DNA of 64,000 nucleotides from Kiloniellaceae bacterium. GTDB taxonomy: Bacteria; Pseudomonadota; Alphaproteobacteria; Kiloniellales; J153. Positions 10,574-31,228 of the stretch are shown piece by piece. The notes below the pieces were generated by a model. The model was not told the DNA's origin. It saw nothing but the letters and a program-made list of their open reading frames with translations, and did no database searches. A program made the translations under genes and the position numbers. Where the stretch lies: contig JAJFGN010000065.1 in NCBI GenBank assembly GCA_021776115.1, positions 1 to 64,000 on the forward strand, written 5' to 3'. Position 1 is the stretch's first letter. Every line of letters starts with the position of its first letter.

Positions 10574-11509
10574 ATGTGTGGAATCGCTGGGCTCATTCAC
10601 CGCGATGGTGCGGGAGAAATTGGCCGGGAAATGACCGACATGTTGCAGGCCTTAAAGCACCGCGGGCCGGACTCGACGGGTTTCGCCATCTACGGCGTGC
10701 CGACGCAGGACCAGTTCGTTCTGCGCTTCAAAGTGGCCGAGCAGGAAGAAATGGCGAAAGGCTTCAAGATCCATGATGAGGTTAAGCGCCGCCGGGTGAG
10801 CGTGGATGAGCGGCTCAAGACTCTGGAGGCGCGTGTCCTCGAGGTTGAGGAAGCGACCGAATACGCCTTTCGCTATCGCATCGCTTACGGCGGCGATCTG
10901 AAGAAGCTGTCGGATTATATCGAGGACGTCGAGGGCGCGGAGATTCTATCGATCGGCAACGCGCTGGAGCTGATCAAGGATTTAGGTGACGCGGGCACCG
11001 TTTCCGGGCAGTACGCCTTGGGTGGGTTTGCCGGTACGCACGGCATCGGCCACACGCGTATGGCGACCGAATCGGATGTCGATATTCGTTCCGCCCATCC
11101 CTACTGGGCCTATCCCTATAACGACATCGCGGTCGTGCATAACGGCCAGATCACGAACTATTGGCTCATGCGCCGCCAGTTAGAGCGCGAGGGGCAGCGT
11201 TTCGTCTCCAACTGCGATTCCGAACTCTTGGCTGTTTATACCGCCACCAACCTGGACAAAGGCGCCAGCTTGGAGGACTCGCTCAAGCAGTCGATCCAGG
11301 AAATCGACGGCGTTTTCACCTATCTGGTGGCGACCAAAGACGAACTGGGCATGGCCAAGGACACCATGGCGGCCAAGCCGATGGTCCTTTACGAGGCCGA
11401 AAACTTGGTAGCTCTGGCCTCTGAAGAGGTCGCGATCCGCAGTATCGTGCCGCACGAGATCGATACCTGGGACCCTTACGACGAGGAGGTACGGGTATGG
11501 CGGGCGTGA
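10574..11509 (+). CDS. mgsA: Class II glutamine amidotransferase-like subunit of N-methylglutamate synthase
   Basis: The 311-residue protein starts Met-Cys-Gly-Ile, so processing would expose the Ntn nucleophile Cys2. Other family residues are seen: LKHRGPDSTG, GHTRMATES, HNGQITNY and NCDSELLA. A charged insertion of about 90 residues separates the first strands from GHTRMA. In methylamine users, MgsA releases methylamine from gamma-glutamylmethylamide and passes it to MgsC. The next gene overlaps it by 13 bases. A closely related paralogue lies at 17658-18563. The alternative name is GlxB. Confidence 0.8.
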   Translation: MCGIAGLIHRDGAGEIGREMTDMLQALKHRGPDSTGFAIYGVPTQDQFVLRFKVAEQEEMAKGFKIHDEVKRRRVSVDERLKTLEARVLEVEEATEYAFRYRIAYGGDLKKLSDYIEDVEGAEILSIGNALELIKDLGDAGTVSGQYALGGFAGTHGIGHTRMATESDVDIRSAHPYWAYPYNDIAVVHNGQITNYWLMRRQLEREGQRFVSNCDSELLAVYTATNLDKGASLEDSLKQSIQEIDGVFTYLVATKDELGMAKDTMAAKPMVLYEAENLVALASEEVAIRSIVPHEIDTWDPYDEEVRVWRA

Positions 11510-12345
11510 GCGACCACGAAACATCGTCCCATGAAATGGGGATGCATACCGAGCAGCTCTCGGGCCGCGATCAACAGGTCTTCTTCGACCTATCGGAGGA
11601 AGGCGGCTTTACCTATACCGACTCCTTCGACGTCGATTTTAACAAGCGCACCGAAATCGATGTCTCCAACATGGACGCGAAGCAAACCAACCTGCGCCTG
11701 CGCGAATTGATGGCGGAGGGCTATGGCACGATTGTCCTAAACAATCCGGGCGCCAAGCACTCGATCGCGGTCGGTATTCTGAACCGGCTCAACCTCATCA
11801 TCGAGGGCAGTCTAGGGTATTTCGGCTGCGGTCTGATCGATGGGCCGAACGTTCGTATTTCGGGGCGCGTCGGTTGGTCCTTCGCGGAAAACATGATGGC
11901 CGGGACTATCGTGATCGAAAAGAACGCGGGCAGCACCTTTGGCGCCGCGCTGCGCGGCGGCGACCTCGTGTGCAAGGGCAGCGTGGGATCGCGTACCGGT
12001 ATCGACATGAAGGGTGGCACCATACTCGTTGGCGGCGACACCGGCGCGTTCTCCGGCTTCATGATGCAGCGCGGCCGCATGGTCGTATGCGGCAACGCCG
12101 GAAAAAACCTGGGCGATTCGATGTACGACGGCAATATCTTCGTCGGCGGGGAGATCAGGGACCTGGGGGTAGACGCCGTGCCCGGCGAGCTGACCGACCT
12201 GGACCGTGCGTGGCTCACCCGCAAATTGAAGATGTACGATCTGCTGCCGGCCAAGGGCGTCGATCACTTCAAGAAGATCGTCGCCGGCAAGCAGCTTTGG
12301 AACTACGACAATCTCGAACCGACAGAAAAGAAACTCATTCTCTGA
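11497..12345 (+). CDS. mgsB: GXGXG-domain subunit of N-methylglutamate synthase
   Basis: The 282-residue protein is a stand-alone version of the C-terminal beta-helix (GXGXG) domain of glutamate synthase. Repeats include NNPGAKHSIAVG, GRVGWSFAENMMAG, GGDTGAFSGFMMQRG and GNAGKNLGDSMYDGNIFVGG. In the three-subunit synthase it is structural, joining the amidotransferase and synthase subunits. ATG 11497 lies inside the end of mgsA with gaggagg before it, suggesting translational coupling. An acidic N-terminal extension of about 60 residues precedes the repeats. Paralogue: 18563-19285. Confidence 0.8.
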   Translation: MAGVSDHETSSHEMGMHTEQLSGRDQQVFFDLSEEGGFTYTDSFDVDFNKRTEIDVSNMDAKQTNLRLRELMAEGYGTIVLNNPGAKHSIAVGILNRLNLIIEGSLGYFGCGLIDGPNVRISGRVGWSFAENMMAGTIVIEKNAGSTFGAALRGGDLVCKGSVGSRTGIDMKGGTILVGGDTGAFSGFMMQRGRMVVCGNAGKNLGDSMYDGNIFVGGEIRDLGVDAVPGELTDLDRAWLTRKLKMYDLLPAKGVDHFKKIVAGKQLWNYDNLEPTEKKLIL

Positions 12346-21295: not shown

Positions 21296-21973
21296 TCAGT
21301 AGCCGATTACGTCCTGCACCAGACGCTTCAGCCGTTCGACATCTTCAACCACCAGAACGCCGGAACGGCGCGCGACGATACCGGCGCGCGAAAGCCGACC
21401 CAACTCCCGGGTTACGGCTTCCCGATGCGTGCTGACGCGGCTTGCGATCTCGGCATGGGTTGGAGCGGGTTGGATTTCCGCAATGTTATCCTCGGTCATG
21501 TGATCGCGGGCGAGGCGCAGGAGCTCCGCGTGGACGCGGTTATTGACGGCCAGGGCACTGAATTCGAACACGCGCTCTGTGAGAGCGCGAACTGAACCGG
21601 TGAGATCCTTAAGCAGCCGCGCCGTTGTCTCGGGATAGGTGCGCAGAACGTCCCAGAACATGTCTGCCGACATCGACGCGATCATCGAGTCGCTCAACGC
21701 AAGAATGTCGGCCGATCGTGGCAGGCCATCGATCGCCGCGAGTTCGCCGAAATACTGGCCCGCCTTGATATCGCGAAACGTTACCTCTCTACCCGCCAGC
21801 GAGTAGATCACCACCCGCACCTCGCCCTGGAGCACTAAGAAGACATCAGTAGAACGATCCAGGTGGCCGACGATCTGTTCGCCGGCGCGATATCGTGTCC
21901 AGTGGAATCGCATGGCCAGACGGTCACGCTCGGCCTGCGGAAGGTCGCGGAAGATTTCAACCTGCGCCAACAT
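21296..21973 (-). CDS. Crp/Fnr family transcriptional regulator with cyclic-nucleotide-binding domain
   Basis: The 225-residue protein has a cyclic-nucleotide-binding domain whose phosphate-binding cassette reads FGELAAIDGLPRSA, retaining the Glu and Arg-Ser that contact cAMP in Crp. It is followed by a long helix and a Crp-type winged helix (THAEIASRVSTHREAVTRELGRLSRAGIV). No Fnr-type cysteine cluster is present. It is divergent from a nucleotide cyclase gene, which suggests a sensor-effector pair. ATG 21973 starts just before the first conserved helix; GTG 22039 or TTG 22051 are alternative starts. Confidence 0.9.
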   Translation of the reverse strand: MLAQVEIFRDLPQAERDRLAMRFHWTRYRAGEQIVGHLDRSTDVFLVLQGEVRVVIYSLAGREVTFRDIKAGQYFGELAAIDGLPRSADILALSDSMIASMSADMFWDVLRTYPETTARLLKDLTGSVRALTERVFEFSALAVNNRVHAELLRLARDHMTEDNIAEIQPAPTHAEIASRVSTHREAVTRELGRLSRAGIVARRSGVLVVEDVERLKRLVQDVIGY

Positions 21974-22514
21974 GCGGCTTCTTGGCTGCCTCACCTCCCG
22001 CCCGGCTGACCGATACGATTTGTCTTCATTCTTGGTCACCGCCCCCCCCAAAGGCCCTCACCAGGAAATCCGGGCCCAGCATATCCGACGCCGCGCCAGG
22101 TATTGTTTTGACTCATAGAGTTTCGAGTCAGACTCCAAGGCGCGTCAACGGCATCATTTCCTGGAACAGACGAAGTAGATACCCAGAGGAATATTCCGAT
22201 CGGTGGTTAAAAACTTTATAGAACCGCCAAATCCCGATCCCCTTGACTTGATCCGGCGACACTTCGTCTGATCGAGGGACGCGATCGCGCGTCGTCTTCG
22301 GGTCCTGGGCCTAAAAGACTATGGTCAAGGAAAGCGCTCGGGAATATGTTATCTTAATAAGCGCACGAATGATAACCTACCAAAGGCCGCATCGGAACTC
22401 CAGATGGCCTCACTGAAGTCGGGTGCGGCGGGTCCGTTGACCAACTAATTTGAAATGCGCGCTCTCGGACTCGGAGGTCAGCAGCCGCACATGAGCTAGG
22501 TTGGGGGTGGTTTT
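21974..22514. other. Divergent intergenic region between the Crp-like gene and the cyclase gene
   Basis: The 541-base region contains two inverted repeats: TGACTC/GAGTCA (22109-22114 and 22125-22130, spacer 10) and GTTATC/GATAAC (22348-22353 and 22371-22376, spacer 17). The second lies in an AT-rich stretch about 140 bases before the cyclase start and may contain its promoter. Neither matches the TGTGA-N6-TCACA Crp consensus. No coding region is supported. Confidence 0.5.
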
Positions 22515-24269
22515 ATGCCCGTTGAGTACCGGCTCGTTACCATTCTGGCAGCCGATGTCGTTGGCTACACCCGCCTCATGGAGGCGCAGGAAGTAGAGAC
22601 CTATACGCAGCTCAGGCGCCTGCGGAAAGAATTTCTTGACCCCGGCATTGAGGCGCAACACGGAAAGGTCATAAAGAACACCGGCGACGGCTTCCTCGCG
22701 ATTTTCGACAGCGCGCACCAAGCGATAGAGTGCGCGCTTTCCCTCCAGCAAACGGTGGCGGCGCAAACGGCGGAGCAATCCGCCGAGCAACGGATTAGCT
22801 TTCGCATGGCCTTGAACCTCGCCGACATTATTGTCGATAGCGAGGATATTCACGGCGACGGCGTCAATGTCGCCGCGCGCCTCCAGGCGTATGCTCCGGC
22901 GGGCGCGATCGTCGTCTCCGGCGCCATTGCCGAGCAGATCAGCGCCGATCTCGGCGTCGGTATGATTGATCTCGGCGAGCTGCATCTTCGCAATCTCGGT
23001 CGCGCCGTTCGCGTATTCGAGCTGCGGATGCCGGCCGCGCCGGCAAGGCTGATTGGTGACGCTGCAGCCGGCTCTGAATCGCGGCCGTCCATTGCTGTAC
23101 TCCCGTTTCGCATGCACCTAACCGACCCGGACGAAGCCTATTTCGCTGATGGTATCGTGGACGACATCATACATGGCCTGGCCACACTCAAGGAATTGTT
23201 CGTTGTCTCGCGTGGATCGACGCTAGGATACGGGGGTGCGACGCTCGACGTGCAAACTGTCGGCCGCGAGTTGGGAGTCCGTTACGTCCTCTATGGCAGC
23301 GTGCGCCGCTCCGGTGGTCGGCTTAGAATTGCGACCGAGCTCAGCGATACCGAGACCGGCACCGTCATCGACTCGCACCAGCATGACGGCGACCTCGCCG
23401 ACCTATTCGAGCTGCAGGATCGTATTGCCATTGGCGTCGTGAAGACAATCGCACCGCACGTTCAAGAGCGGGAGCTGATGCGGGCAATGCGGAAACACCC
23501 GCAGGACATGACCGCCTACGATCTCGTCCTGCAAGCGCTCGATCTCTTGTATCGGATGGACTATGAATCCTTCTCTCGATCGCGCGGCTTGCTGCAGCAA
23601 GCGATTTCCCATGATCCCAGCTACGCGCCAGCCTATTCCTACGGCGCGCTTTGGCACATTTTCCATGTTGGCGAGATCGGGTCCTCCAATTTCGATGCAG
23701 ACGCAGCCGCCGGCGCATATCTGGCCGCTGCCGCCATCGAACACGACCCCAACGATGCACTAGCCCTTTCAATTTGCGGGCATGTTCGGTCATTTCTGCT
23801 GCGGGACTATCGCAGCGCGATGAGCCTTCTCGATCGCGCTATTGACGCGGGGCCGAGCTTGGCCATGGCATGGACGATGAACAGCGCAAACTGTGGTTAT
23901 ATCGGAGATGGCAAAGCAGCCGTGGAGCGGGCCGAGAAGGGCGTTCGTCTGTCACCGCTGGATGCGCGTACTTTCTGGCACGAGGGCCTTCTGGCGCAAG
24001 CCCACTATGTCGACGGAAACTATGAAGAATCGCTGGGATGGGCACGGAGCGCCGTCGCGCGCAACGAGTCGATACGATTCAACGTGCGGACGCTGATTGC
24101 GACGCTCGCCGCCCTCGGACGGCATGATGAAGCAGCGCAGGCAGCTCGTCACCTCCTACGGATTCAACCCAAATTCCGGCTTGGATCGTACGTCAAGTCT
24201 TGCCCTTTCCAGGATGCCGCCTTGGACACTTGGATCGCGCGCTTGAGATCGGCCGGGTTACCGGATTGA
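22515..24269 (+). CDS. Class III adenylate/guanylate cyclase with TolB-like and TPR regions
   Basis: The 584-residue protein has an N-terminal class III cyclase domain (about 7-180). Metal-binding Asp14 is in AADVVGYTRLM, the second in KNTGDGFLAIF, and the transition-state region reads GDGVNVAARLQ. It continues with a TolB-like segment (SRPSIAVLPF ... YFADGIVDDIIHGLATLKELFVVSRGS) and C-terminal TPR-like helices. This arrangement is common in rhizobial CyaA-type cyclases. There is no membrane segment. ATG 22515 follows ggttgggggtgg. Divergence from a Crp-type gene suggests cAMP as product. Confidence 0.9.
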   Translation: MPVEYRLVTILAADVVGYTRLMEAQEVETYTQLRRLRKEFLDPGIEAQHGKVIKNTGDGFLAIFDSAHQAIECALSLQQTVAAQTAEQSAEQRISFRMALNLADIIVDSEDIHGDGVNVAARLQAYAPAGAIVVSGAIAEQISADLGVGMIDLGELHLRNLGRAVRVFELRMPAAPARLIGDAAAGSESRPSIAVLPFRMHLTDPDEAYFADGIVDDIIHGLATLKELFVVSRGSTLGYGGATLDVQTVGRELGVRYVLYGSVRRSGGRLRIATELSDTETGTVIDSHQHDGDLADLFELQDRIAIGVVKTIAPHVQERELMRAMRKHPQDMTAYDLVLQALDLLYRMDYESFSRSRGLLQQAISHDPSYAPAYSYGALWHIFHVGEIGSSNFDADAAAGAYLAAAAIEHDPNDALALSICGHVRSFLLRDYRSAMSLLDRAIDAGPSLAMAWTMNSANCGYIGDGKAAVERAEKGVRLSPLDARTFWHEGLLAQAHYVDGNYEESLGWARSAVARNESIRFNVRTLIATLAALGRHDEAAQAARHLLRIQPKFRLGSYVKSCPFQDAALDTWIARLRSAGLPD

Positions 24270-24326
24270 AGGATCGGGAACCATGCGAAGCAGTCTGAGC
24301 AAACGAAGATAACGGAGGGCATTAAC

Positions 24327-25199
24327 ATGACCGGCAATACGGGAAACACGGGAAATACGGGAAATACGGGTAACACGGGTAACACCGGCAACGCCGGCCT
24401 CGTCGGCGAGATCGGTGGCGGCTGGTTCATTTCCGACCGTGCCGACTTTCCATTCGTGACGATTTTGGACTCCACCAACACGGAGATCGGAGATCGGCAA
24501 AGAAGCCATTTGACGGCCTTCGGCGACCGGAACTGGATCGCCAAATGGCACGCCTGGCGCGTGGTGCACGAATTTTCCGAGCTGACGTGGAAACCGGCGG
24601 GCCAGGCCGCCCTCGACCTAATAAGGAACCCGATCAACTTCCCCAACGAGATCGCCGATCTGAAACTTGCGGCACGCGACGAACGCGCCGATGCGATGGG
24701 TGCCATCCTGTCGCAGGATGTGGAGTTCATCTCGGATTTCATGGGCCTCCTGGCGATGGCACCGGGAACGCACCCGATGACCTATCGCGTTCTGCACATT
24801 GCCAGCCTGGTCGGCTCGTTCGCCGTGCTGCATTTCAAAAGTCACTACGATGTGCCGCGGCCCTCGCAACTCTGTCCGGCGCTGCTGCCGCCGATACCGC
24901 TGCCCGGGCATGCGTCTTTTCCCAGCGGTCACGCGACGCAGGCCTATCTGATCGTGCATTGCATCGGGAAGGTGCTGACCGATGCGGGCATGAACGTTGA
25001 CGACAGGGCTGTCATATCGGCCAACGTGACGGCTCTTGCCGACCGGGTTGCGCGGAATCGCGAGATCGGCGGACTGCACTACAAGAGCGATTCAACCGCC
25101 GGCAAAGCATTGGCCCAGACGGTGTTTGACACCCTGACCGCCGGTTCGACCACCTTGTACACCGCGGCAATGGCCGCTGCGGCGGAGGAGTGGTCATGA
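24327..25199 (+). CDS. PAP2/haloperoxidase-like phosphatase with N-terminal GNT repeats
   Basis: The 290-residue protein has all three PAP2 motifs: K-x6-RP (KSHYDVPRP), PSGH, and R-x5-H-x3-D (REIGGLHYKSD). These form the phosphate or vanadate pocket of type 2 phosphatidic acid phosphatases and vanadium haloperoxidases. It lacks the multiple transmembrane helices of lipid phosphatases, so it resembles the soluble, haloperoxidase-like branch. The first residues are six GNT triplets and one GNA, encoded by 9-base repeats. No signal peptide is seen. ATG 24327 follows ggaggg. Its stop overlaps the start of the peptidase gene (ATGA). Confidence 0.85.
   Translation: MTGNTGNTGNTGNTGNTGNTGNAGLVGEIGGGWFISDRADFPFVTILDSTNTEIGDRQRSHLTAFGDRNWIAKWHAWRVVHEFSELTWKPAGQAALDLIRNPINFPNEIADLKLAARDERADAMGAILSQDVEFISDFMGLLAMAPGTHPMTYRVLHIASLVGSFAVLHFKSHYDVPRPSQLCPALLPPIPLPGHASFPSGHATQAYLIVHCIGKVLTDAGMNVDDRAVISANVTALADRVARNREIGGLHYKSDSTAGKALAQTVFDTLTAGSTTLYTAAMAAAAEEWS
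24333..24395 (+). repeat. Seven tandem 9-bp repeats encoding Gly-Asn-Thr
   Basis: Seven units of the form ggN-aaY-acN start right after codon 2 of the PAP2 gene and give six GNT triplets plus one GNA. Units differ at third bases, so the array is not perfectly identical, but slippage could still change copy number in steps of three residues without breaking the frame. Confidence 0.85.
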
Positions 25200-26242
25200 C
25201 GCCGCAATATGACGCCGACCTCGAGCAAGATCTCGCCAAACGGTTGGAGGAAATCCTTAAGAGGACGCACTTCTTTCCCTTGCCCGAGCCGGGATTCGAC
25301 CCGTTGACGGCGAGCCCGGAGCAGCTTTCGCATTACGGCCTGCCCGCCAAACCGAACGCGGACACGCACCCTGCCCGCTACGCGTTCTGGCACGAGCTGT
25401 TCTCCCCCCCACTGCTGTTCCGCGAGGTGATGTTCTCCTTCGCGCCCTTGCCGCAGCGAACCACGTTGACTTATCGGCGCACCGCGCTGGGTCGCCGGAC
25501 CGTCCACCAGTCGAGCCCCAATTGGTCCGGCGCCTACATCGCGCCCAGGGATCGGCGTATATTCAACGAGGTCCACGGCGCGTGGCAGGTGCCGACGCCA
25601 TCGCCGCCGGCCCCCGCGGTGCCGATCGGCTTGCACGAGTACCGCAGCTCGACCTGGATCGGCCTCGACGGCCAAAGGCGCTATTACCATTCCTCGCTGC
25701 CGCAAATCGGCACCGCGCAGTTCATCGAGGTCGAGGCGGGAGTCGCGGCGGAACCGACTTACAGCGCCTGGTGGCAATGGTGGGTCAAGAACGATTTCTC
25801 GCAGCCCCCGGTCACGTTGTCGCTGGCGGTCAAGGCGCACGACGCAATCATGGCCAGCGTGATCGTGGACGGCGACCGGCAGGGGGTGCGTTTCATGATC
25901 AAGAACGTAACCACCGGCCATATCGTCGGACCGTTCGGTGAATCGGCACCGCCGCAGGCGATTCCGCTGAAGGTCTCCGGCGCGACCGCCGAGTGGGTCA
26001 TGGAGCGCCCGGCGGTCTGGCTCTCCGATGTCCTGTACGACCTGCCAAATTACAACACGGTGCTGTTCAACAACTGCCTCGCCATGGCGGCCAGCCCCCG
26101 GGGCGGGCCGATCAAGGAGAGACGGCTGCAGGGCGCCAAGCTCATCGATATGTACGAGGTCAGGCGAAATCCGCAGAGAACAGCAAAAATTTCTGTTGCT
26201 AAGCTAATCAATGAGCGGCAGGTCATGACGGTTTATCGCTGA
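25196..26242 (+). CDS. Glutamic peptidase of the G1 (eqolisin, formerly A4) family
   Basis: The 348-residue protein contains the eqolisin fold signature: SPNWSGAYIAP, GAWQVPTPSPP, SSTWIGLDG, then LPQIGTAQ with the presumed catalytic Gln, TYSAWWQWW, and GATAEWVMERP with the presumed catalytic Glu. These peptidases are acid-active and best known from fungi, with scattered bacterial members. No signal peptide is visible, and about 95 non-catalytic residues precede the domain. The start is ATG 25196, overlapping the PAP2 stop by 4 bases with ggagg seven bases before, so the pair is translationally coupled. Confidence 0.8.
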   Translation: MTPQYDADLEQDLAKRLEEILKRTHFFPLPEPGFDPLTASPEQLSHYGLPAKPNADTHPARYAFWHELFSPPLLFREVMFSFAPLPQRTTLTYRRTALGRRTVHQSSPNWSGAYIAPRDRRIFNEVHGAWQVPTPSPPAPAVPIGLHEYRSSTWIGLDGQRRYYHSSLPQIGTAQFIEVEAGVAAEPTYSAWWQWWVKNDFSQPPVTLSLAVKAHDAIMASVIVDGDRQGVRFMIKNVTTGHIVGPFGESAPPQAIPLKVSGATAEWVMERPAVWLSDVLYDLPNYNTVLFNNCLAMAASPRGGPIKERRLQGAKLIDMYEVRRNPQRTAKISVAKLINERQVMTVYR

Positions 26243-26312: not shown

Positions 26313-26624
26313 TTAGCTTGTGTCGCCTAAGTTGACGCCAATGCGGAACTGAAGCTTGCGATCGTCGGAAAGGCCCTTGTTCCGCTCAGCCAACTCGTGC
26401 TGCGCAGTGACGGCGCACTTAAGAGCCGATACCACACTCCCAAATTCCGCGAACACGGCATCGCCCGCGGTAATGACGATCAGGCCGGCGTGGCCTTCGA
26501 TCGTGGCGCTCAACGCGTCGAAGTGCGCTCGGAAGACCCTGTGGGCGCCTTCCTCATCCAAACATGCCAGGTGACTGTAGCCCACCACGTCGGCATAGAG
26601 GATCGCTGCAAGCTTCCGTTCCAC
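26313..26624 (-). pseudogene. Truncated class III nucleotide cyclase (N-terminal fragment)
   Basis: A 103-residue frame matches the first half of a class III cyclase domain: KLAAILYADVVGYSHL with the first metal Asp, VITAGDAVFAEF, and FRIGVNLGD. It ends Thr-Ser-stop where an intact protein would continue with the GDGVNVAARL region, and nothing related follows in any frame. The second Asp of the GDG motif is replaced (AGDA). It is a decayed remnant of a cyclase similar in type to the one at 22515-24269. Confidence 0.75.
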
Positions 26625-27137: not shown

Positions 27138-29450
27138 TTGCGGCCCGGCTTATGGACTCTGCCGCCCGGTGTCGAAAGGTATCGGGTTGCTGGGGGTGCG
27201 GCCGTCGTGGTCGGGATCGAGGCCGGCGACCGGATTGTCCTGCGTGACCTGGAAGGGCGTCAGCCCTGCGAGGTGATCGCGGCAGGCCCGGACGGCCGCA
27301 TCGATGTTGGTATCTTCGGCGCCAAGGCCACGGTGGCGGCGGATGGTTTGAAAGCGATTTTGGCGCGCGGCGGCGAGGGCGCGCGCCGGGTGCGTTCGGC
27401 CTTGGAGCGCCGGGGCATCGATTTAGCGAAAGCCATGGCGCTGCGCCTCTTTGGCGGCGACTCGCGCGCGGGCGAGAGTGACGACTTCACCGCGACAAGC
27501 AGCGGCGTCCTCATCGTCTGCGCGCCGGGCGGGCCCATGGCCGTGGACAGTCATGAGACCGCGACCCCCATCGAGCTTCGACTGATCAGGGCCCGGGTTC
27601 CCGCGCCCGAAGACACGTCGCTTCCCGAGCCCTTGGCCGACCCGATGCTGGATCTTCGCGTGCGCCGGGCGACGGCCGAGGCCTATGAGGTCAAGGCGGG
27701 CGAGTTCATTCAAGTGATCGACGTGGCCGGACGCCAATGCAGCGACTTCCAGTGCTTTTCGGCGCGGGCGTTGGAACGCGGGGTGGAGCGGCCGCTGGAT
27801 GCGACGACGACGCGCACGCTGGTCGGCCAGAGCTATCCCCTGCCCGGTTTGTTCGCGAAGGGCTTCGACCGGGATATGCAGCCCCTGGTCGAGATCGTCC
27901 AGGATACCTGCGGCCGGCACGACGCCTTCGCGCTCGCCTGCAGCGCCAAGTATTACGACGACATGGGTTATCCGGGCCATGTCAATTGCTCGGAAAATTT
28001 TAACGGCGCGCTCAAGCCCTATGGCGTCGCCGCGCGCAAAGGGTGGATGGCGTTTAACTTCTTCTACAATACCGCGATCGACGATCATAACGCGATGTAC
28101 CTGGACGAGCCTTGGTCGCGGCCCGGCGACTACGTGCTGATGCGGGCCTTGAGCGACCTGGTCTGCGTATCCTCGGCCTGTCCCGACGATATCGATGCGG
28201 CGAATGGCTGGGACCCAACCGACATTCAGGTTCGGACCTACGCCGGCAAGGAACGTTTCTCCAAAGCGGTGGCCTATAGGATGACACCAGATGCAGATCC
28301 TCAGATGACGCGCGAAACCGCGTTCCATCCGCGCCTCTCGGAAATGACGCGCAACTACGTCGAATACCGCGGCTATTGGCTGCCCACGAGCTTCGCCAAG
28401 GCCGGAGTGCTCGAGGAATACTGGGCCTGCCGGCAGCGTGCCATCGTGACCGACCTTTCGCCCTTGCGTAAATTCGAAGTGACGGGGCCGGACGCGGAAG
28501 CCTTGATGCAGTACACCCTGACCCGGAACGTGCGTAAGCTGGCGGTCGGGCAGGTCGTCTATTCCGCCATATGTTACGAGCACGGCGGCATGATCGACGA
28601 CGGCACTCTGTTCCGTCTGGGGGCGGACAACTTCCGTTGGATCGGCGGTGACGATTACGGCGGCATCTGGCTGCGAGAGCAGGCCGAAAAGCTGGGCCTG
28701 CGGGCCTGGGTCCGGTCCTCGACCGAGCAGTTGCACAACGTTGCGGTTCAAGGGCCGAAATCGCGCGACATCTTGCGTGAGGTTATCTGGACCCCACCCA
28801 CTCAGCCGGCCTTGGACGAGCTTGGCTGGTTCCGTTTCACCATCGGGCGGATCGGCGATTTCGATGGCGCGCCGGTCGTGGTTTCGCGTACCGGCTATTC
28901 CGGCGAGCTCGGTTACGAGATTTGGTGCCACCCCAAGGACGCGGTGGCGGTCTTCGATGCCGTTTGGGCCGCGGGCGAAGCCCACGGCATCGCGCCGCTC
29001 GGCCTGGAGGCGCTCGACATGTTGCGCATCGAGGCGGGGCTGATTTTCGCCGGCACCGAATTCAGCGACCAGACGGATCCCTTCGAGGCGGGAATCGGAT
29101 TCTCTGTCGCCCTCAAAACCAAGGAGGACGATTTCATCGGGCGCGAGGCGCTGATCCGGCGCAAGGCGAACCCGCAGAAACTCTTGGTTGGCTTGGAAAT
29201 CGAGTCGAACGAGGCCGTCGGCCACGGCGATTGCGTGCATGTCGGCCGGGCGCAGATCGGCGAGGTAACCAGCGCCGTCCGCTCCCCGGTCCTCAAGAAA
29301 AATATCGCGCTCGCGCGTCTCGACCTTGCCCACGCCGCGTTGGATACGGCGGTCGAGGTCGGCAAGCTGGACGGGCACCAGAAGCGCCTGCCGGCGCGCG
29401 TCGTCCGCTTCCCCCACTATGACCCGGATAAGGTCCGCGTGCGCGCTTAA
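27138..29450 (+). CDS. tdm: Trimethylamine N-oxide demethylase (DUF1989 plus GcvT-type domains)
   Basis: About 770 residues. The N-terminal half contains DUF1989-type sequence, with Cys-rich stretches QCSDFQCF, DTCGRHDAF, NCSENFNGAL and CVSSACPDDIDAANGW, candidate metal ligands. The C-terminal half (about 395-770) is an aminomethyltransferase (GcvT) domain with RTGYSGELGYEIW and LGLEALDMLRIEAG, expected to bind tetrahydrofolate. This fusion is the architecture of Tdm, which cleaves TMAO to dimethylamine and formaldehyde. The convergent neighbour is tmm. TTG 27138 is the first conventional start but lacks a ribosome-binding site; a gaggagg at 27066-27072 points to an ATT at 27078 in the same frame. 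Confidence 0.82.
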   Translation: MRPGLWTLPPGVERYRVAGGAAVVVGIEAGDRIVLRDLEGRQPCEVIAAGPDGRIDVGIFGAKATVAADGLKAILARGGEGARRVRSALERRGIDLAKAMALRLFGGDSRAGESDDFTATSSGVLIVCAPGGPMAVDSHETATPIELRLIRARVPAPEDTSLPEPLADPMLDLRVRRATAEAYEVKAGEFIQVIDVAGRQCSDFQCFSARALERGVERPLDATTTRTLVGQSYPLPGLFAKGFDRDMQPLVEIVQDTCGRHDAFALACSAKYYDDMGYPGHVNCSENFNGALKPYGVAARKGWMAFNFFYNTAIDDHNAMYLDEPWSRPGDYVLMRALSDLVCVSSACPDDIDAANGWDPTDIQVRTYAGKERFSKAVAYRMTPDADPQMTRETAFHPRLSEMTRNYVEYRGYWLPTSFAKAGVLEEYWACRQRAIVTDLSPLRKFEVTGPDAEALMQYTLTRNVRKLAVGQVVYSAICYEHGGMIDDGTLFRLGADNFRWIGGDDYGGIWLREQAEKLGLRAWVRSSTEQLHNVAVQGPKSRDILREVIWTPPTQPALDELGWFRFTIGRIGDFDGAPVVVSRTGYSGELGYEIWCHPKDAVAVFDAVWAAGEAHGIAPLGLEALDMLRIEAGLIFAGTEFSDQTDPFEAGIGFSVALKTKEDDFIGREALIRRKANPQKLLVGLEIESNEAVGHGDCVHVGRAQIGEVTSAVRSPVLKKNIALARLDLAHAALDTAVEVGKLDGHQKRLPARVVRFPHYDPDKVRVRA

Positions 29451-29534: not shown

Positions 29535-30878
29535 CTATTTCGTCTGCAGATAGGACTCCAAGGAATCGTCCATGGCGTCTAGCCACGGCGTGTGATGGGC
29601 GGGCGCCATAGTGCCGGTCATCAGCGAGCGGTAGCCATTATTTCGGAAGCCCATGATGTCGTCCATCTTGTGGTGTTCCCACGCCATGAACGTCTTGTTG
29701 ACCCCATCGACGTCAAAGCTTGGATAGTCCGTCTGATCGATCAGTTTCTGAACGTAGTCGCCCTGGAAATAGATCATGTCTTCGGCGCTCTCGAGCTTGG
29801 CTTCGCGCGCGAGCCAGGCTTGGCTATCCGCATCCATCTCCGCCTTTGACGGCAGTGCGATCCGTCCCATGATCGCATCGCGGGCGTACCAGGCCTGCGC
29901 GTCGAACATGTTGAAAGTATAAAATTGATCCTGCATGCCCAGATACATGAGCTTGGGATTGCTCTCCCACACCACCCCCTGATAGAGGCCGGGTGTCCAC
30001 ATGCGATTCGTGGTGGTCAAACGAAGGTCGTCGGGCAGGAACGGGAAATGGTGCAGGTAACCGGTGCACTGGATAATCGCATCGAAATCCTTCTTGGTGC
30101 CGTCCTTGAACGTACACGTCTTGTTTTCGACCTTTTCGAGGAGCGGGACCTCCTGCCAATTGTCGGGCCAGTTGAAGCCTGTCGGCGCTGAGCGGTAACT
30201 GATCGTGATCGACTTGGCGCCGTACTTGTAGCATTGGGAGCCGATATCCTCGGCGGAGTAGCTGCGGCCGATGATAAGGATATCCTTGCCCTTGAATTCC
30301 AGGGCGTCGCGGAAATCGTGAGAGTGCAGGACGCGGCCGTTAAAGCCCTCAAGTCCTGGGAAGTAGGGGACATGGGCGGTCGAGAAGTGCCCGCTTGAGA
30401 CGACGACGTTGTCGAAGTCCTCGCTGGTCATGGTATTGTTCGCCAGGTCTTGCGCGGTGACCGTGAACTTTTCCGTGTCGTTCGAATAGGTGACCATGCG
30501 GACCGGCGTGCTGAAGCGAATCCAGTCGCGGACGCCGGCCTTCTCGACCCGCCCCTTGATGTAGTCCCAAAGGACCGCGCGCGGCGGATAGGAGGCGATT
30601 GGTTTGCCGAAATGCTCCTCGAAGGTGTAGTCGGCGAATTCCAAACACTCCTTCGGGCCGTTTGACCAGAGGTAACGGTACATGCTGCAGTGAACCGGCT
30701 CGCCGTACTCGTCTAGGCCGGTGCGCCAGGTATAATTCCAAAGCCCGCCCCAATCCGACTGCTTCTCGAAGCAAACCACTTCTGGAATTTCGGCGCCCTT
30801 AGCGGCCGCTGACTGGAAGGCCCTGAGTTGCGCCAGACCCGAGGGGCCCGCCCCGATAACCGCGACACGAAGCGTCAT
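29535..30878 (-). CDS. tmm: Trimethylamine monooxygenase (flavin-containing)
   Basis: The 447-residue protein is a class B flavin monooxygenase. It has the FAD Rossmann motif GAGPSG at 9-14, the FMO-type motif [11 protein letters not shown], and an NADPH site [19 protein letters not shown]. These strings and the [11 protein letters not shown] region match bacterial Tmm, which oxidises trimethylamine to TMAO. ATG 30878 starts [14 protein letters not shown] with gggagag upstream; a longer frame to 30947 adds unrelated residues. It faces tdm, whose enzyme would use its product, and is divergent from the ABC importer. Confidence 0.88.
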
Positions 30879-31228
30879 TATTACTCTCCCGTGTTTTTTT
30901 CTTCGCCCTTTGAGCCTAACCGCCTCTTGGGCAAATGTCTTGCTCACCCGCGGCGGTCACGATGCGCCCGAGTGGCGAAACCAATTCATCGCATGATCCA
31001 ACCATTTTAAACCAACTACAAACCAATTTGTCAAAAACAACCGAAATTGGTATTGCCCATTGGTTGCGATCCGCCCTAAGCTCTGGGTACCGCTTGGCTG
31101 CATCGTGAGCCAAGCCGCATAAAACGTGAACCGTGGTGAGGTGAGTCGGCCAAGCCGTATTTCTTGGCCCGCCCCAAAAAGGATTTTTTGTCTGTTTGCC
31201 ACGGAACGAAATTCAGGGGAGGACAGAG
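30879..31228. other. Divergent regulatory region between tmm and the ABC importer
   Basis: This 350-base region is relatively AT-rich and holds at least five ACCAA/TTGGT elements (30980-31064), annotated separately. No reading frame in it has homology. It must contain the promoters of tmm (minus) and of the importer operon (plus). Confidence 0.7.
30980..31064. promoter_or_regulatory. Cluster of ACCAA/TTGGT operator elements in the tmm/importer promoter region
   Basis: ACCAAT (30980-30985), ACCAAC (31011-31016), ACCAAT (31022-31027), ATTGGT (31046-31051) and ATTGGT (31059-31064) occur within 85 bases. The elements at 31011 and 31022 are a direct repeat with an 11-bp period. The minus-strand block 31034-31013 matches 18 of 22 bases with 8954-8975 in the gmaS promoter. 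Inverted orientation of the two groups fits control of both divergent units. Confidence 0.6.

Follow-up and report, generated by a model that had tools for sequence, protein, structure and literature searches.

An apparently undescribed three-gene cassette lies on the forward strand of a 64,000-nucleotide stretch of DNA from a Kiloniellaceae bacterium (assembly GCA_021776115.1, contig JAJFGN010000065.1, positions 1 to 64,000), hereafter the window. Its three same-strand genes (22515-26242) form an operon-like module encoding a regulator, a PAP2 / vanadium-haloperoxidase-like enzyme that begins with a peptide repeat, and a G1 glutamic peptidase (eqolisin); all belong to known families, in a combination matching no system found. 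Homologous loci retain this arrangement, the repeat tail is conserved at the protein level, and the peptidase and the head of the regulator are exchanged for members of other families. An earlier note on this DNA had proposed a two-protein system made of the PAP2 enzyme and the glutamic peptidase; the coupled pair stands, but a third gene, the regulator, belongs to it. The glutamic peptidase is moreover an incomplete definition of the partner, being one of several exchangeable classes, and neither the tail nor the first gene had been noted. In a full-text literature search, outside the scope of which lay most subscription papers and bioRxiv preprints, no description of the cassette or its tail was found, nor, as the note had supposed, any link between G1 peptidases and PAP2 or haloperoxidase-like enzymes.

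Gene 1 (22515-24269, +) encodes a regulator of 584 amino acids with a class III adenylate/guanylate cyclase head, a TolB-like region and TPR repeats, and ends 57 bp before gene 2 (24327-25199, +), which starts with ATG and encodes the 290-residue PAP2 enzyme (PF01569). By sequence reading, this gene is preceded by a Shine-Dalgarno-like GGAGGG (24314-24319, +), and residues 2-22 of its product consist of seven Thr-Gly-Asn units, (TGN)7 (24330-24392, +). A second Shine-Dalgarno-like motif, GGAGGA (25184-25189, +), precedes gene 3 (25196-26242, +), which encodes a peptidase of 348 amino acids with an N-terminal pro-region and overlaps gene 2 by the ATGA (25196-25199, +) that the earlier note had read correctly. 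The open reading frame (ORF) finder placed the peptidase start at a GTG (25190), but the ATG at 25196 was preferred because the overlapping ATG is kept in relatives: the ATGA overlap is retained in 28 of 42 tabulated G1 rows, in which a few genomes are listed twice, and junctions are tight or overlapping among the cassettes.

Conservation of the cassette was assessed in 57 homologous loci from alphaproteobacteria, two genomes of another class and four named plasmids, a number inflated by near-identical Bradyrhizobium rows. A related regulator is present in 57/57, a peptidase in 56/57 and a repeat of short period, located at the N-terminus of PAP2 or close to it, in 56/57; 18 peptidase and 18 regulator rows supplied the queries and therefore match themselves. 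The genome sets searched (Bradyrhizobium 146, class 385, phylum 398 and 299) are samples. A peptidase scan returned 12 loci, 11 from Bradyrhizobium and one from Cohnella (L027). PAP2, about 50% identical, lies directly upstream in all 11 Bradyrhizobium loci; the Cohnella locus had no PAP2 match, and its genome gave two short PAP2 matches only (best expectation value, E, 1.3e-8), nothing cassette-like. Among the sampled Bradyrhizobium genomes, 28 of 146 had a peptidase match, accompanied in 25 by PAP2 and regulator-like matches (the regulator being only distantly similar in 11 of these); in the remaining three (L067-L069) the peptidase is a C-terminal fragment, and neither PAP2 nor cyclase matched in its vicinity. 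Isolated C-terminal G1 fragments of Bradyrhizobium (L104-L106), around which the 12-18 kb fetched gave neither a PAP2 nor a cyclase match, are likely decayed cassettes. Bacterial G1 peptidases are uncommon, as had been stated: any PF01828 protein occurs in 8/385 class genomes, six of which, that of the window included, have regulator, PAP2 and peptidase together, the G1 peptidases of the other two starting with a hydrophobic, signal-like stretch. Of the same 385 genomes, those with window-type PAP2 (E<1e-50) are precisely the six that carry the cassette peptidase. The 4.3-Mb genome of the window itself (85 contigs) has the cassette peptidase as its single PF01828 match. In the phylum sample PF01828 was found in 3/398 genomes, all three already in the set. 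The search for the same gene pair elsewhere, which the note had advised, thus shows it to recur.

The association was also approached from the PAP2 side. When PAP2 relatives were picked regardless of their neighbours, repeats were recognised by eye in 20/20 loci at E <=1.2e-11 and in 0/15 weaker relatives, most of which resemble ordinary secreted or membrane PAP2 proteins; L094 gave no match. The regions around those 20 loci and some others contained the same cassette parts with substitutions. The profile A3, built from 22 diverse PAP2 proteins of the cassettes, may lean slightly towards repeat-bearing proteins since its rows hold some repeat columns. Run on 299 phylum genomes, it matched 29 at 1e-15; cassette level (E<1e-35) was reached in 17, among them two from another class. 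Among 11 newly examined loci chosen by PAP2 similarity, ten have repeat, regulator and peptidase, the repeat being a dipeptide inside the protein in L161 and L164; eight of the ten peptidases have a Pfam match (in one case below cut-off) or resemble a peptidase that has one, L160 and L162 being recognised by motif reading only. In six controls, taken from 12 lower-scoring genomes matching A3, none of repeat, regulator or peptidase was found in the PAP2 ORF or the four nearest called genes. The distribution of the cassette is patchy, and its cultured carriers include Bradyrhizobium, Phaeobacter, Paracoccus and Microvirga.

The repeat tail is the most distinctive part of the enzyme. Between the seven units of the window there are nine synonymous and no amino-acid differences, and over 50 distinct tripeptide arrays the unit-versus-unit differences amount to 540 synonymous against 2 non-synonymous, the synonymous share expected by chance being about 27%; the tail is thus conserved at the protein level while its codons drift. 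Since an array was defined for that count by exact repetition of its unit, a single mismatch being tolerated, amino-acid changes are undercounted, chiefly at the ends; block duplications make the differences non-independent, and arrays of period 2 and 4 were left out. The unit itself varies by lineage, being TGN in the window and AGN, GGY, DAR, GGF or NK elsewhere. At least four tripeptide units within the first 80 residues were found in 10 of 259 genes called in 22 regions, nine of them PAP2, the gene caller having begun some PAP2 genes downstream of their tail; the tenth, and sole non-PAP2 case, is the partner subtilase of L120 (9607-11790), which starts with four EPS units. Arrays often begin a few codons from a start codon. 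In seven Phaeobacter records whose last 340 residues share 96.8% identity or more, 5, 6 or 7 NSF units are present, and comparison of copy number, unit and parts indicates that copy number moves fastest, the unit next and the parts slowest. Charged units occur in 9/9 loci with a divergently placed S8 (S8div), shorter-type S8 (S8apr), C1 or C70 peptidase and in 4/38 with G1 or main S8 (Fisher p 5e-7, in a test that ignores ancestry and covers few clades); the basic dipeptides GR, NK and NK accompany one subtilase type, and Asp/Glu-Gly-Gly tetrapeptides three cysteine-peptidase loci. In the loci with the shorter subtilase type (L118, L161 and L164), these dipeptide repeats lie farther inside the PAP2 frame and are not N-terminal tripeptides. 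A collagen-like tail was considered (PF01391, 14.5 bits) and rejected, since units without Gly (DAR, TSN, NSF, NAE and NK) in other loci argue against one triple-helix explanation for the family.

The slot next to the enzyme is filled by different peptidases (PF01828, PF00082, PF00112 and PF12385): G1 in 20 of the 57 loci, S8 in 27, S8 divergently placed in 3, a shorter S8 type in 3, C70-like in 2, C1 in 1 and none in 1. The Pfam test of a first ten gave seven S8, one C1, one C70 and one C70-like match below cut-off, that of a second ten eight S8 (one below cut-off) and two without match, while for the 18 query peptidases 13 matches were above cut-off and two below (L122 C70, 17.2 vs 19; L159 S8, 20.4 vs 21.8). 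The peptidase of L099 is 36% identical to that of the window (locus L056 in the genome of L099); those of L160 and L162, without Pfam match, are S8-like by their motifs, and that of L174, annotated S8 in its record, resembles L160. In the cassettes with a papain-like C70-type peptidase an extra small gene adjoins the peptidase (L108, 11356-12018, and L122, 9269-9877), the two being alike by eye; the L108 product had no PADLOC or NCBIfam match. The regulator head is exchanged as well, between cyclase, BTAD and OmpR-type DNA-binding forms: above Pfam cut-off are the cyclase heads of L103, L120 and L156, the BTAD heads of L111, L122 and L099 and the OmpR-type heads of L121 and L124, the remaining heads being assigned by similarity or reading. 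L125 has no Pfam match and L162 a below-cut-off DNA-binding match only; in L102 and L163 a cyclase head not matched by Pfam was recognised by eye, that of L163 looking degenerate. TPR repeats matched in 8/8 regulators of a first set (two below cut-off) and 8/10 of a second (one below). A PAP2 tree built from 48 loci (the 57 minus eight near-duplicates and L159, which lacks the search motif) requires at least 6 changes of peptidase class, 6 of the regulator head, 5 of repeat period and 31 of repeat unit; non-cyclase heads were labelled DNA-binding by default, so that the regulator changes are between cyclase and non-cyclase. This quick tree has 11 of 45 inner branches starred, 20 open and three long rows. 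Across it, the cassette arrangement survives replacement of both peptidase and regulator head.

The catalytic residues of both enzymes are intact. The window PAP2 protein scores 26.0 bits on PF01569, just under the cut-off of 27.2, and ten relatives score 28.4-59.4 bits. Its active-site span (K171 to D255; 24837-25091, +), defined by motifs and alignment, comprises K171-x6-R178-P179, H195, P199-S200-G201-H202 and R245-x5-H251-x3-D255, so that K-x6-RP, PSGH and R-x5-H-x3-D are all present. Across the 22 diverse PAP2 sequences from cassettes, none of K, R, P, the two His, R, H and D varies, and the Ser of PSGH is found in at least 90%; one further locus, L159, has PMGH. The first of the two His, seven residues before that of PSGH (H195 in the window protein), aligns with a His of bromoperoxidase (PDB 1qi9, 7qvw) that acid phosphatase 7f17 lacks; by sequence the best solved relative is the phosphatase 7f17 (E 1e-24), followed by the bromoperoxidase 1qi9 (1.5e-11). 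The position of Phe397 in fungal chloroperoxidase is reported to be occupied by His in a bromoperoxidase, with an unclear role (PMC9144378). The bromoperoxidase-like His would not by itself decide for a vanadium haloperoxidase, and with a phosphatase as best overall match the enzyme is labelled PAP2/haloperoxidase-like, that is, a phosphatase or a peroxidase. Active-site motifs are common to vanadium-dependent haloperoxidases and class A acid phosphatases, from which the window protein differs in being short, repeat-tailed and without an N-terminal hydrophobic stretch.

The window peptidase matches PF01828 (Peptidase_A4) with 89.7 bits against a cut-off of 22.3, and its predicted catalytic residues Gln170 (25703-25705, +) and Glu270 (26003-26005, +) align with Gln 24 and Glu 110 of the aspergillopepsin II heavy chain, which we take to be the catalytic pair of that enzyme. 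Domain and Gln/Glu dyad are as in the MEROPS G1 eqolisins, and the dyad is kept in 20/20 cassette G1 peptidases. Fungal G1 peptidases are secreted; unlike such characterised members, the cassette enzymes whose N-terminus could be placed (16 of 20, window included) have no secretion signal, their highest 15-residue Kyte-Doolittle mean being 0.8 compared with 1.91 and 2.53 in two non-cassette G1 peptidases. The earlier note's observation that neither protein of the pair has a recognisable signal peptide, and that both may thus be cytoplasmic, is upheld, the PAP2 N-terminus being the hydrophilic repeat and that of the peptidase not being hydrophobic. The bacterial G1 peptidase pepG1 of Alicyclobacillus carries a signal peptide and is most active at pH 3-4 (PMC3009609); the scored cassette peptidases differ from it in lacking a signal peptide and in being encoded behind a PAP2 gene. 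Outside the cassette, secreted-looking G1 peptidases occur at L036 and L031 (genomes G331 and G380), and that of L036 has, by eye, an N-terminal pro-region motif in common with the cassette peptidase. A low-confidence structural model of the window peptidase (predicted local distance difference test, pLDDT, 54.6) is mostly beta after residue 110, and a Foldseek search with it gave weak, mostly lectin-like matches, with the glutamic peptidase neprosin at rank 2 (E 8e-4, TM-score, the template modelling score, 0.33).

By domain profile the window regulator is predicted to be a class III nucleotide cyclase (PF00211, 38.3 bits against a cut-off of 21.9) with TPR repeats (TPR_14, 29.3 bits), the TolB-like stretch between them being assigned by reading and by weak below-cut-off matches in its relative L102. 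Although the cassette-bearing genomes hold 3 to 29 matches to the cyclase query, the cassette-linked copy is the best match in 8/8 other genomes tested (46-68% identity), other copies reaching at most 44%, and the 44% copy itself sits in another cassette (L108). The domain order, with heads that vary between cassettes, resembles that of TPR-bearing regulators of the CadC/HilA and class III cyclase types and that of the TIGR04510 peptide modification system cyclase, to which the window regulator scores 29.0 bits, far below the cut-off of 400. The partner genes of the TIGR04510 system differ from those of the cassette. A Crp/Fnr-family regulator (cNMP_binding and HTH_Crp_2; 21296-22051, -) is encoded divergently from the cassette cyclase; such a protein is possibly the receptor of the cyclase product in some lineages, but was dropped as a fixed cassette part because Crp-like genes occur in the fetched flanks of only 5/57 loci.

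PAP2 matched in 39 plasmid records, of which ten were opened, and a plasmid search gave no G1 peptidase match. Of four named plasmid records, three are annotated with an S8 peptidase next to PAP2 and two with a regulator of the winged-helix type or the SARP family; on Phaeobacter inhibens pP66_c the order is winged-helix protein, phosphatase PAP2 family protein, S8 family serine peptidase. Other neighbours are entered as 'hypothetical protein' and match the cassette queries. The Phaeobacter cassettes L256, L257, L258 and L260 lie on plasmids typed as conjugative, so that the module can probably move between strains, and three other Phaeobacter records are typed as non-mobilizable. In Paracoccus sp. 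AK26 (L173) a SIR2-family gene (11015-12199) lies one gene downstream of the cassette, the only possible defence-type neighbour noticed in flanks that were not searched systematically for defence genes. A Pycsar or other catalogued defence system was rejected, as PADLOC gave only weak or generic matches (window cyclase to PycC, 17.5 bits; a generic subtilase model; IetS, 9.5 bits) and none of its models matched the window PAP2 or peptidase. In Pycsar anti-phage systems, too, a class III cyclase neighbours putative effectors; the cyclase similarity is weak, and the effectors are unrelated to the PAP2 enzyme and peptidase of the cassette. A phage origin was also discarded: in the window PAP2 protein PHROGs matched nothing but the low-complexity tail, and none of the 80 viral loci examined (the best of 244) has a tail of this kind.

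We tentatively propose that the protease of the cassette acts on the tail and so controls the PAP2/haloperoxidase-like enzyme within the cytoplasm, a reading that we hold to be possible rather than probable. Gene 1 would sense a signal via its TPR/TolB-like part and switch the module on, by making a cyclic nucleotide in the window lineage and by direct DNA binding in others; genes 2 and 3 would then be co-produced in the cytoplasm, yielding the enzyme and a dedicated endopeptidase. The flexible N-terminal tail may serve as the handle, each unit being an equivalent docking or cutting site, and its trimming might release, activate or destroy the enzyme. The strongest argument for it is that an endopeptidase nearly always supplied and of indifferent class suggests a nearby, always accessible substrate to cut, for which the tail is the obvious candidate. 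Several observations weigh against this proposal. The strongest is that the unit changes freely beside nearly the same subtilase: in one genus the units are TGL, AGT, SGV, SGV and AGI, with PAP2 proteins 69-94% identical (from the tail on) and subtilases 68-88%, which makes a strict cut-site code unlikely in that genus and favours a tail used for assembly. Cleavage, furthermore, does not need perfect regularity, and the correlation between tail and peptidase type is confounded with PAP2 ancestry over few independent clades. The eleventh of the newly examined loci, L163, has an irregular Gly-Leu-rich tail and a regulator, and no peptidase was found there; an S8 motif search was mixed, the complete triad not being seen in every subtilase, so that no claim is made that all the serine peptidases are active. 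The 19-residue Kyte-Doolittle maximum is at least 1.6 in 8/57 cassette PAP2 proteins (highest 2.1), which makes membrane contact possible for those, and an AlphaFold model of the PAP2 protein (12 alignment rows) reached a pLDDT of 41, too low to place the tail relative to the active site.

The regularity of the tail would be expected if it were a self-association arm, through which identical units on numerous PAP2 subunits would zip together or condense, whatever their register, and gather enzyme and protease: homogeneity would be needed because any register must fit, and the unit chemistry could drift. The units are indeed identical within a gene and free between genes, as the 31 unit changes on the tree indicate, the copy number runs from 5 to 7 among the close Phaeobacter records, and many units (GGY, GGF, GSF, NSF, GR, GGA, SGV) resemble self-associating low-complexity segments, but charged units such as DAR, NAE, NAD, NK and NGK are not easily reconciled with a single type of assembly, and short arrays of 3-5 units exist; we regard this explanation as somewhat doubtful, and it can be true together with control by the protease. 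It has also to be considered that the units, 9 bp long and close to a start codon, gain and lose copies to adjust translation or enzyme level, the tail protein being inert. Copy-number differences between close relatives and the position of the arrays would suit such tuning; the amino-acid unit is, however, kept while the codons diverge (540 to 2), and the DNA unit is wholly different between lineages, so that we find it improbable. A slightly less improbable, though still unlikely, alternative is a conflict or regulated-death module, in which phage or stress would induce a damaging cytoplasmic enzyme (an oxidant-making haloperoxidase or a phosphatase) that stops growth together with the protease. 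The patchy distribution (17/299 phylum genomes at cassette level), the carriage on plasmids, some conjugative, the exchangeable proteases, the weak similarity of the window cyclase to that of Pycsar and the SIR2-family gene downstream of L173 speak for it; against it stand the poor PADLOC matches, the absence of the tail from all 80 viral loci examined (the best 80 of 244) and the fact that no immunity gene was recognised. It may further be speculated, with as little expectation of being right, that the cassettes form an undescribed class of effector module in which PAP2 carries a lineage-specific peptide barcode, a protein-level minisatellite read or cut by the exchangeable protease, the pair being private and acting as a self-identity code in stress-induced death or conflict. 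Ordinary co-location of unrelated housekeeping genes in a few lineages, to which the abundance of cyclase/TPR regulators and subtilases might have pointed, has next to no probability left and is refuted by the co-occurrence of the parts in 57/57 and 56/57 loci against 0/6 control PAP2 loci; the linked cyclase is, besides, the best copy in every other genome tested, and the arrangement outlives the replacement of its parts.

Downstream of the window cassette, a 103-residue ORF (26313-26624, -) matches the start of a class III cyclase domain with 20.2 bits, below cut-off, and is probably a truncated or remnant cyclase gene. Further along lies a gene for DUF1989 fused to an aminomethyltransferase (GCV_T) domain pair (27138-29450, +), which adjoins that of an FMO-like monooxygenase (29535-30947, -).

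Taken together, proteases of three catalytic types (glutamic, serine and cysteine) fill one slot beside one enzyme, the tail of which is perfectly regular within a gene and changes its letters between species. Glutamic peptidases are known mainly as secreted acid enzymes; if control of the PAP2 enzyme by its own protease proves true, a cytoplasmic role would be added for them, and of the numerous cyclase-TPR regulators found in Bradyrhizobium one group would acquire a role.

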